Positions 22,321 through 25,274 of a stretch of 64,000 nt of DNA are shown one piece after another. Position 1 is the first letter of the stretch. Each line of letters starts with the position of its first letter. Origin of the DNA: Oceanibacterium hippocampi (GTDB lineage: Bacteria > Pseudomonadota > Alphaproteobacteria > Sneathiellales > Sneathiellaceae); NCBI RefSeq assembly GCF_900172325.1, contig NZ_FWFR01000001.1:1566335-1630334 (forward strand), given 5' to 3'. The notes under the pieces were generated by a model. It searched no databases. It worked only from the letters and a program-made list of their open reading frames with translations, and was not told the DNA's origin. A program made the position numbers and the translations under genes.

Positions 22321-22718
<398 letters not shown>

Positions 22719-22781: not shown

Positions 22782-23576
22782 CTACGGTGCGACGCAGGGC
22801 TCCCTCGGCGCGAGCGCGATGTCGTCGGCCGCGTGATAGCGGACGATCACCCGGCGCGGCAGCGCCTGCCGGTTGTTGCGTCGGGTCTTGTAGAAGGGCA
22901 CCAGCGGGTCGCGGTCGATATTGGGATCCTCCTCCAATATCGACGAGGTGACGAAATCGAGAAAGGTGGCATGCAGGGTCGTGCCGGCCGGCAGGGCGCG
23001 GGCGGCGGCGGATTCCCCGGCTGATTCCCACGTCATCCAGGCGGCAAGCGGATCGCCCTCGGCCTTGGTCTCGCCGCAGATCCGCGTCGGTTTGCCATAG
23101 GCCGCCTCGAGCGCGGCGACGATCTCCAGGTAGTCGCGAAGCGCCATGGCGCCCCGGCGCCGCTGCATCATCACCTGGCGCAGGCCGCCGCTCGCCTCGT
23201 CGATCTGCAGGATGACGTCGAAGCGCTGACCGGCAAGCGGCTGGTCGAGCAGGGCGAACGGCGCCCGCATCGGGCCATAGCGCCAGGGTGGGGAAAGTTC
23301 GCGCAGACGCTCGCCGAAGGCGGCCCGGACCGCGCCAGCCGGCATCCCCCAGTGGAGACGGTCGAGGGCGAGCCCCTCCAGGCCCGAGTCCGGGGGTGTC
23401 CCGGCCGCGATCGCCCGCGACGATGGGGGCGCAACCGATCCGAGGAGTGCCAGGACGACCGCAAGCAGGATGGCCGGGATCCCGAGGCGGGGGCGGCGAC
23501 GGTTCGCGAACGGCGTCGCCGCGACGGCGCCCGACTTCGCCCCGGCGCCGAAATCGGCCGCCGCGAAAAAGAACAT
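22782..23576 (-). CDS. Uncharacterised exported or membrane-anchored protein
   Basis: 264 residues from the ATG at 23576; an ATG at 23609 adds residues from an AT-rich, noncoding-looking stretch. A basic N-terminus (NRRRPRLG near 25) precedes one hydrophobic segment (about 33-50), then a proline/alanine-rich linker, so the rest should be periplasmic. The globular part begins LEGLALDRLHWGMPAGAVRAAFGERL, which resembles small periplasmic domains that fold around a WGM motif, and later has LRDYLEIVAALEAAYGKP. I do not recognise a family. It converges on rnpB and is divergent from the mraZ promoter. Confidence 0.72.
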   Translation of the reverse strand: MFFFAAADFGAGAKSGAVAATPFANRRRPRLGIPAILLAVVLALLGSVAPPSSRAIAAGTPPDSGLEGLALDRLHWGMPAGAVRAAFGERLRELSPPWRYGPMRAPFALLDQPLAGQRFDVILQIDEASGGLRQVMMQRRRGAMALRDYLEIVAALEAAYGKPTRICGETKAEGDPLAAWMTWESAGESAAARALPAGTTLHATFLDFVTSSILEEDPNIDRDPLVPFYKTRRNNRQALPRRVIVRYHAADDIALAPREPCVAP

Positions 23577-23702
23577 AATACGAACACACTGTTGTCCAAG
23601 TAATACCATGGCGACTGATTATGGCTGTTCTGCAAGGGGGATGGCGAGCTGCTTTCGGATGTTGGATTTACCTTCAATTTTAGCCATTTGGTGCCGCGGA
23701 AA

Positions 23703-23779
23703 CCCAAGGATTTAGGGGTGGTTCCCATTGACTCCCCATGTCGTACCATGCTATCCCAAATGATCCCATCCGCAGCCCA
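23703..23779 (+). promoter_or_regulatory. mraZ promoter with repeated CCCA half-sites (candidate MraZ boxes)
   Basis: CCCA occurs at 23724, 23735, 23755, 23765 and 23776, with ACCA at 23745, so six units recur every 10-11 bases; another CCCA at 23703 is two turns upstream. Read on the other strand these are TGGG units, the core known for MraZ direct-repeat operators. They overlap a plausible sigma-70 promoter: TTGACT at 23728 and TATCCC at 23752 preceded by TGC, spacing 18. The mraZ start is at 23842. Autorepression by MraZ is therefore a strong inference. Confidence 0.7.
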
Positions 23780-23841
23780 TGTCATGTCGGGCCGGACCGG
23801 AGGGTGGGGGCGTTCGTAGGGCTCAAGTCGGGACGGAAACG

Positions 23842-24306
23842 GTGTTTGTTTCCAATTTCACCAACAGGATCGACAAGAAGTGGCGGGTTTCCGTGCCCGC
23901 GCGCTATCGCGCGATTCTGTCCGAAGCCCAGGATTCGGTGATCTACGCCTATCCCCATCCGACCTCGCCCTCGATCGTCTGCTCAGGCATCGGCCCGATC
24001 CGCGAACTGCAGGCCTCGATCGGGAAGTTCAACCCGCTGTCGCAGGATTTCGACGACTTCGCCGACGCGCTGCTGTCGCAGATCGAGGAGATGTCCTGGG
24101 ACAACGAGGGCCGCGTCGTGCTGCCGGAGAACCTGCGGATCCACGCCGGGCTTTCGGATTCATGCGTCTTTGCCGGCCGTGGCGATACCTTCCACATCTG
24201 GGAGCCGGCCGCCTTCCAGCGTCGCCTCGAGGAGGCCCGGCGCAACGCCCAGAGCCGCCGCGATCAGCTGTCGCGCATCACGCCGCCCGGCGGGAGCGGC
24301 GCATGA
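23842..24306 (+). CDS. mraZ: Transcriptional regulator MraZ
   Basis: 154 residues from the GTG at 23842, preceded by GGGACGGA; upstream in-frame ATG codons would add residues that overlap the promoter repeats. Two SpoVT-AbrB-like repeats carry the family motif: [17 protein letters not shown] near 5 and [13 protein letters not shown] near 95. MraZ is a ring-forming DNA-binding protein that represses its own dcw operon. First gene of the cluster, with ATGA overlap to rsmH. Confidence 0.94.
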
Positions 24307-25274
24307 CCGCCGGCGCTCGTCAGGCGCCTGGGCACGAGCCCGTCATGCTCGGGGAAGTGGTGACGGCGCTCGCGCCCCGCGATGGGGCCGTCTACGTCGA
24401 CGCCACCTTCGGCGGCGGCGGCTACAGCCGCGCCATCCTGGAGGCGGCACGCTGTCGCGTGGTCGGTATCGATCGCGATCCGGCCGCCCGGCCGCGGGCC
24501 GAGGCGCTGGCAGCCGAGTTCGGCGACCGTCTCGAATTCGTCGAGGGCTGCTTCGGCGACATGGAGCGCTTGCTCGGCGCCCTCGGCATCGAGGCGATCG
24601 ACGGGGTTGCCTTCGACTTCGGTGTCTCGTCCTTCCAGATCGACCAGGCGGAGCGGGGCTTCTCCTTCAGCAAGGATGGCCCGCTCGACATGCGCATGGG
24701 CGCCGACGGGCCGACCGCGGCCGACATCGTCAACGAGCTGTCCGAGGGCGAACTCGCCGACATCATCTACCGCTATGGCGAGGAACGCCGGTCGCGCGCC
24801 GTCGCGCGTGCCATCGTCGCGAGCCGGGCCGAGGCGCCGATCCGGACCACCAGGGCGCTCGCCGCGCTGGTCGCCCGCGTGGTCCGCAAGAGCGGCGACA
24901 TCCACCCGGCGACGCGGACCTTCCAGTCGCTCCGCATCCACGTCAATGACGAGCTCGGCGAGATCGAGCGTGGCCTCGCCGCGGCCGAGCGGCTGCTCCG
25001 TCCGGGCGGCCGGCTTGTCGTCGTCGGCTTCCACAGCCTTGAGGACCGGATCGTCAAGCGGTTCCTGATCGCCCGCGCCGGGCTTGCGGGGCGGCCGTCC
25101 CGCCACCAGCCGGACTTGCCGCCGGCACAGGCGCCGAGCTTCGAGCTGCTGCATGGCGGCGTGACGAAGCCGGGGGCCGGCGAAACGGCGCGCAATCCGC
25201 GGGCCCGCTCGGCGCGCCTGCGCGCGGCGGTGCGGACAAGCGCCCCGTCATGGCCGCTGGAGGACGCGGCATGA
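24303..25274 (+). CDS. rsmH: 16S rRNA (cytosine(1402)-N(4))-methyltransferase RsmH
   Basis: 323 residues. SAM motif [16 protein letters not shown] near 30, then [19 protein letters not shown] near 103 and the C-terminal [20 protein letters not shown]. The enzyme adds the N4 methyl group to C1402 in the decoding centre. It overlaps mraZ upstream and ftsL downstream as ATGA. Its position in the dcw cluster is universal and not explained by its reaction. Confidence 0.97.

Follow-up and report, generated by a model that had tools for sequence, protein, structure and literature searches.

The mraZ locus and its repeat array

The window, the whole stretch of 64,000 nucleotides of Oceanibacterium hippocampi DNA that was analysed, contains a dcw cluster that is headed by mraZ. 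The product of mraZ was matched in two stretches by PF02381 (E 5.4e-18) and was also matched by NF001477 (E 4.7e-38), the latter with 130.5 bits, which is below the curated cut-off of 162. MraZ proteins contain two repeats with the motifs D-x-K-G-R and D-x-x-G-R, and both repeats were recognised in the window protein, the N-terminal one with DKKWR, in which W replaces the usual G, and the C-terminal one with DNEGR. At the position of this W, G is present in 136 of the 152 sampled proteins, two rows of that comparison being wrongly anchored. An AlphaFold model of the window MraZ, generated from two sequences, was of low confidence (pLDDT 58), and the best five rows of a structure comparison with this model were MraZ entries with Z of at most 4.0. 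The GTG start of mraZ, predicted from relatives, sits 30 nt 5' of the conserved DKKWR stretch, and the ORF listing places the start at the ATG at 23779, where the last unit of the array described below ends (Table 1).

Downstream of mraZ and rsmH lies ftsL (NF049847 FtsL, E 4.5e-25), followed by a PBP gene of the ftsI kind, for which the PBP models scored below their cut-offs. The later ORFs downstream of the PBP gene are presumably murE-, murF- and mraY-like. On the other side of mraZ, an RNase P RNA gene has as its two neighbours an amidase gene, which includes a peptidoglycan-binding domain, and an ORF that is divergent from mraZ. The start of the divergent ORF lies 94 nt from the outermost unit of the array, and the array may therefore also sit in the promoter region of that ORF.

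Table 1 Features of the mraZ region, in positions of the window
Feature	Position	Strand	Remarks
RNase P RNA gene	22325-22717		RF00010, 305.9 bits
275-aa ORF	22782-23609	-	Divergent from mraZ; zero Pfam matches at E 0.05
Box -5 (outermost)	23703-23706	+	CCCA; next box 21 bp on
Box -3	23724-23727	+	CCCA abutting TTGACT (CCCATTGAC)
Predicted -35	23728-23733	+	TTGACT
Box -2 (core)	23735-23738	+	CCCA
Box -1 (core)	23745-23748	+	ACCA; its CA opens the CATG of the extended -10
Predicted extended -10	23749-23757	+	TGCTATCCC; final 3 bases are the start of box 0
Box 0 (core)	23755-23758	+	CCCA overlapping the -10
Box +1 (core)	23765-23768	+	CCCA at the predicted transcription start
Box +2	23776-23779	+	CCCA, 11 bp past box +1
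mraZ	23842-24306	+	154 aa; GTG start at 23842 predicted from relatives
DKKWR stretch of mraZ	23872-23898		
rsmH (mraW)	24303-25274	+	Overlaps the mraZ stop (ATGA); TIGR00006, E 7.1e-83

The array consists of six exact CCCA units and one ACCA unit with steps of 21, 11, 10, 10, 10 and 11 bp, and its last unit ends 62 nt 5' of an intact mraZ. The initial annotation had described five CCCA units, one ACCA unit and a further CCCA two turns upstream that together cover both promoter elements, and the coordinates of the units, of TTGACT and of the extended -10 agree with that description. Three properties of the array are those of MraZ operators: it is a direct repeat with a TGGG core on one strand, it has a 10-bp period, and it lies at the predicted promoter of a dcw cluster that mraZ heads.

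To assess chance, the 405 nt upstream of the window mraZ were shuffled 20,000 times with dinucleotides preserved. The longest in-phase chain was six units in the observed sequence versus three in the shuffles (19 of 20,000), and none of the 20,000 shuffles reached four. Exact CCCA chains of two units or longer were absent from the + strand of the rest of the 64-kb window, and the longest exact chain on the - strand had two units. Across the 4.83-Mb genome, a search for three exact units at 10-11 bp returned a single match, the array site, and the backwards control pattern returned two.

The promoter itself is predicted from the -35 and the extended -10, and transcription would start at about 23763-23765. 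The promoter scanner did not report the window promoter because its -10 rule demands a T at position 6, which TATCCC does not have; the silence of the scanner is thus not evidence against the promoter.

Spacing of the array in the family and in the class

The order to which the genome belongs was represented by one family among the genomes searched, and a MraZ match was obtained in 22 of 25 family genomes. TTGA and CATGNTA were present in all 22 family loci, with a spacer of 17 bp in 21 and of 18 bp in one. When boxes were counted as CCCA or NCCA, the slots of the 22 loci were occupied as follows: -5 in 18, -4 in 2, -3 in 13, -2 in 20, -1 in 22, 0 in 15, +1 in 19 and +2 in 15. Slot -4 was thus empty in 20 of the 22 loci, so the gap that sets the outermost unit "two turns upstream" is a kept feature. 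The outer step from -5 to -3, again with NCCA counted, was 21 bp in nine and 20 bp in two of 11 family loci, and because of these two the re-phasing of the outer boxes is not strict. The window, which was the sole member of its genus in the family sample, had six exact in-phase CCCA units, versus at most three in the 21 family relatives.

The class Alphaproteobacteria was sampled with 289 evenly drawn genomes, of which 245 had a MraZ match; Caulobacter vibrioides, included as a control, gave a match too. Upstream DNA was obtained for 130 of the 245 (30 loci and 100 regions), taken roughly by MraZ score, and one was dropped because its upstream stretch was short, leaving 129 loci; since sampling roughly followed the score, the sample leans towards typical MraZ. 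A CCCA chain of at least three units, with steps of 10-11 or 20-22 bp, was found in 105 of the 129 loci and in 33 of 12,900 shuffles. The chains had three units in 34 loci, four in 37, five in 24, six in seven and seven in three. Pairs of CCCA in these loci were 10 bp apart in 279 cases and 11 bp apart in nine, and no pair was 9 bp apart. With four off-phase spacings, chains on 152 loci never went beyond two units. After 127 loci were grouped by MraZ identity, the array was found in 81 of 97 groups at 70% and in 34 of 44 groups at 50%; its conservation is not confined to close kin. The initial annotation had proposed that the region be compared among relatives and had named a lack of phase conservation as a refuting result; in that comparison the phase of the repeat proved to be conserved, which excludes this refutation.

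Fewer than three exact CCCA units were present in 24 of the 129 class loci. Among 26 short-chain loci defined with an earlier anchoring, 20 scored at least 11 of 16 for four in-register units, which is a raw score without a chance level, and many of the short-chain class loci have CCA units in register. Chains of three TGGG on the coding strand were seen in four of the 129 class loci, and coding-strand GTGG chains of at least three units in none of them.

To place the array relative to the promoter, a set of 97 promoters, that of the window and those of 96 class genomes, was anchored on TTGA and CATGNTA, with spacers of 14-20 bp permitted. The spacer between TTGA and TANNNN was 17 bp in 70 of these promoters and 18 bp in 27, and the -10 hexamer was TATCCC in 80 and TATACC in eight. 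Exact boxes occupied slot -5 in 21 of the 97, -4 in 13, -3 in 43, -2 in 72, -1 in 82, 0 in 83, +1 in 55 and +2 in 12, and at positions 5 bp out of phase an exact box was present in none or one of the 97.

The steps between boxes were collected, with corrected anchors for two class loci, from 97 class genomes and the window. In the core they were always 10 bp, from -2 to -1 in 63 of 63 cases and from 0 to +1 in 53 of 53. The step from -1 to 0 provides no evidence, because the CATGNTA anchor fixes these two boxes relative to each other. Further out, the step from -5 to -3 was 21 or 22 bp in 12 of 12 cases, that from -3 to -2 was 10 bp in 27 and 11 bp in four, and that from +1 to +2 was 11 bp in four of the five promoters with both boxes, the window included. 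Core units are therefore exactly 10 bp apart and outer units are mostly shifted by +1 bp, and the steps of the window array fit this class spacing rule.

The window array is long, yet it follows the rule of the class. When exact units were counted by slot from -6 to +3, eight of 97 class genomes reached six and none had more; the window has six. It is not the longest array, because chains that allow skips had six units in seven of 129 loci and seven units in three. A scan of the genome contigs for six-unit arrays gave at least 118 stretches, dominated by repeats with near-identical units, and is no estimate of how frequent long arrays are. Among the six-unit stretches listed with at least four different spacers, a MraZ-like motif lay behind the array only in that of an alphaproteobacterial MAG (L288).

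Association with MraZ and comparison with described operators

A strict array of four exact units at 10 bp was present in 96 of the 289 class genomes, and the backwards control pattern in five of them. All 96 were among the 245 genomes with a MraZ match, versus none of the 44 without one (Fisher p 3.7e-9, kinship not corrected). A mraZ coordinate was available for 56 of the 96 genomes, and in 55 of these the strict array lay at most 1 kb upstream of mraZ; two matches elsewhere (in G116 and G117) were found among the 56. The window genome does not itself contain a strict four-unit run, because box -1 is ACCA. The proposal of the initial annotation that the array is a MraZ operator is strongly supported by the phase of the repeat across the class, by the confinement of strict arrays to genomes with a MraZ match and by their placement upstream of mraZ.

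Among the 44 genomes scored MraZ-less, rsmH was looked for in 20 and found in 18 (19 loci), and CCCA chains of at least three units lay upstream of rsmH in two of these 19 loci. One of the two, L171 of genome G059, has a diverged mraZ that had escaped the MraZ search, so the 44 genomes are not all truly MraZ-less; the other is L175 of genome G136, described further below.

MraZ operators are a known kind of element. That of E. coli K-12 (NC_000913) comprises three coding-strand GTGGG units, which come after the -10. The window array shares with this operator the direct TGGG repeats at 10 bp beside the mraZ promoter and differs from it in number, orientation and position: it has six exact CCCA units on the coding strand, which run from before the -35 through to beyond the start site. 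Autoregulation by E. coli MraZ has been reported, and the available parts of two sources state that this protein represses the cluster (PMC8475190, PMC7761207). The PmraBc promoter of B. cenocepacia contains, according to the accessible portion of that report, four 7-nt repeats with 3-nt spacers, and MraZ shifts the fragment (PMC7761207). The 10-bp period of these repeats is shared by the window array, whereas the B. cenocepacia repeats are of the GTG type and follow the -10, extending across the start site, and in the same partial text they are not fused with the -35 and -10 (PMC7761207). The Mollicutes site is given in excerpts of two sources as (AAAGTGKN3)3 (PMC5282649, PMC8475190), that is, 10-bp direct repeats as in the window with a core of AAAGTG versus ATGGGA. 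Structures of M. genitalium MraZ with DNA have been deposited (9r4j, 9sz7), and the title of 9sz7, the part of the entry drawn on here, reads "MraZ in complex with 4 box promoter".

The CCCA orientation of the array is that of its class, and most of the loci sampled from other groups have GTGG on the coding strand instead. Among 70 loci from 96 genomes of non-alphaproteobacterial Pseudomonadota with a MraZ match, coding-strand GTGG chains of at least three units were found in 49 and CCCA chains in two. These last two (L350 of G410 and L353 of G349) carry a GTGG array as well, and their CCCA array, which runs the opposite way, is located some 400 nt before mraZ; it perhaps serves a divergent gene. 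A further 19 loci came from named genomes; one had no recognisable start motif, one was from an alphaproteobacterium and had six CCCA units, and 17 were from other groups. Coding-strand GTGG chains of at least three units were present in 11 of the 17, from Paenibacillus, Ktedonobacterales, actinobacteria, Bacteroidota, Myxococcales and others, and the remaining six had fewer units. Upstream of mraZ in Actinokineospora, one of the 17, four-unit chains of both CCAC and GTGG were seen along with a CCCA chain, and Nocardioides sp. CFH 31398 has four CCAC and five GTGG units in the same region.

The core of the repeat differs as well. A GTG core is said to be common to the MraZ sites of E. coli, B. 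subtilis and mycoplasmas in the part of the source available (PMC7761207). The alphaproteobacterial units lack it and have an ATGGGA core: of 618 such units, 75% have A and 5% have G directly in front of TGG, and of 222 units from other Pseudomonadota 82% have G there. Because of this base, the alphaproteobacterial operator is classed as a variant and not as the classical GTG type, and with ATGGGA in place of a GTG core the specificity of MraZ must differ. The position described for E. coli and B. cenocepacia, with the repeat in the coding strand and 3' of the -10, does not hold here either: the coding strand has CCCA, and the array begins 5' of the -35 and continues across the start site.

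In the initial annotation, the array had been set against known operators of about three repeats and considered longer. The figure of three holds for E. coli but not for B. cenocepacia, with four, or for the "4 box promoter" of the 9sz7 title, going by the accessible parts of these sources; six exact units are indeed more, but length is the less unusual point. The CCCA orientation on the coding strand, which had also been pointed out, is a real difference from the described operators and is a stronger distinguishing point than array length.

Another alphaproteobacterial dcw promoter, that of Rhodobacter sphaeroides, has been described, likewise upstream of mraZ (PMC5089854). In the part of the description available, the dcw leader, with the sRNA UpsM, is 268 nt long and has a terminator, whereas in the window box 0 begins 87 nt before the predicted GTG (PMC5089854). 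None of the words TGGG, repeat and operator appears in the main text of that paper. A literature search of incomplete coverage found no paper on an alphaproteobacterial MraZ operator, and an earlier description is possible; nor did it find the class-wide inversion, the ATGGGA core or the fusion with the core promoter. The inverted, promoter-fused form with an ATGGGA core thus appears to be new.

Proposed mode of action and alternatives

The boxes, their spacing and orientation, their conservation and their tie to the presence of MraZ are features read from sequence, and on this basis we consider the array very probably an autoregulatory MraZ operator at the promoter of the dcw cluster, with binding, the number of rings, steric repression and the transcription start all predicted. 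Each CCCA, or TGGG on the other strand, would be one MraZ box. One MraZ ring would probably hold boxes -2, -1, 0 and +1, which span the spacer, the -10 and the start; it would occupy a single face of the promoter, beginning immediately past the -35 and reaching the start site. Box 0 shares bases with the -10, and box -1 runs into the extended -10. Such a ring and RNA polymerase would therefore be mutually exclusive, and the overlap of box 0 with the -10 makes steric exclusion of polymerase the simplest mechanism. The cluster would in this way be repressed by its own first product, MraZ. For the outer boxes (-5, -3 and +2), the shift of +1 bp that most of them show would restore the helical phase at about 10.5 bp per turn, and these boxes probably take a second ring or offer alternative registers. 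The suggestion in the initial annotation of several MraZ ring contacts would fit a core of four with shifted outer units; graded repression, which it named as another possibility, may occur.

It is a real though rather unlikely possibility that only the four-box core is functional, with boxes -5, -3 and +2 as relics or spare sites. Occupancy drops outside the core (slot -3 in 43, -5 in 21 and +2 in 12 of the 97 promoters), three or four boxes have been described in E. coli and B. cenocepacia, and the family outer step is 20 bp in two of 11 loci. The outer step across the class, however, is 21 or 22 bp in all 12 cases, and within the family 18 of 22 loci retain slot -5 and 20 have slot -4 empty, both of which argue against relics. 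The sense of regulation could also be other than repression. MraZ might activate from the same operator or act in both ways, remodelling the promoter at low MraZ and blocking it at high MraZ, which we regard as unlikely. The TATCCC found in 80 of the 97 promoters is far from TATAAT and is a poor -10, as would suit an activated promoter, but an extended -10 (CATGNTA) is able to compensate for a weak -10, and the boxes overlap the -35 region, the -10 and the start site, so that polymerase should be kept out by a bound ring. The effects seen in other bacteria point in both directions: as summarised in the portion of one source available, filamentation on overexpression of MraZ in M. gallisepticum was reportedly accompanied by more FtsZ (PMC8475190, citing Fisunov 2016), whereas E. 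coli MraZ represses and loss of mraZ in M. genitalium raises ftsZ, with FtsZ overproduced (PMC8475190).

Readings in which MraZ has no part are much less probable. It is very improbable that the boxes belong to some other DNA-binding protein that acts at the dcw promoter, as MraZ sites are known to have the form of TGGG units every 10 bp and strict arrays are absent from all 44 genomes scored MraZ-less. The sites of CtrA and CenR are, to our knowledge, not CCCA arrays. Such a protein would account for the absence of the GTG core, and both regulators have been placed at mraZ promoters, CtrA by a motif in S. meliloti (PMC3616915) and CenR by a ChIP signal in R. sphaeroides (PMC9275681), each according to the part of the report available. 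A phased repeat that acts through DNA shape or as an element of the leader RNA, without MraZ, is scarcely credible. The boxes do lie on one helical face, as a shape effect would require, but the array is tied to the presence of MraZ, five of the seven boxes are upstream of the predicted start and would therefore not be in the RNA, and an Rfam search of 23400-24400 at E 0.5 gave zero matches.

The operator bound and read by MraZ as a repressor remains our preferred reading, and a bolder form of it can be put forward tentatively, as possible though short of probable. In the class, the operator would have been turned round and fused with the core promoter, with a change from GTGG to ATGGGA; one ring would sit on the core and a second on the outer boxes, and in long arrays such as that of the window the two would cover the whole promoter, -52 to +21 relative to box 0. 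The cell-division cluster that mraZ heads is widely conserved among bacteria, yet in the literature consulted the MraZ operator is known from few species, all with GTG repeats. The Alphaproteobacteria differ in orientation, in a core base and in having a box that overlaps the -10. They thereby offer a natural setting in which to ask how direct repeats are read by a ring-shaped repressor and whether the face of the ring matters, and how a protein-DNA code shifts when its site is locked into a promoter. They also raise the question of why the core boxes keep 10.0 bp while the outer ones are mostly shifted.

If the fusion is real, promoter strength and repression could not evolve apart, save on loss of mraZ, for which there is one case, locus L175. 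This locus is from a 0.8-Mb genome (G136) with no recognisable mraZ and no room for it, in which three boxes are kept about 216-236 nt before the rsmH match. TTGACG is present and the -10 is TATTTT, not TATCCC, which in this one case may represent decay of box 0 after the loss of mraZ.
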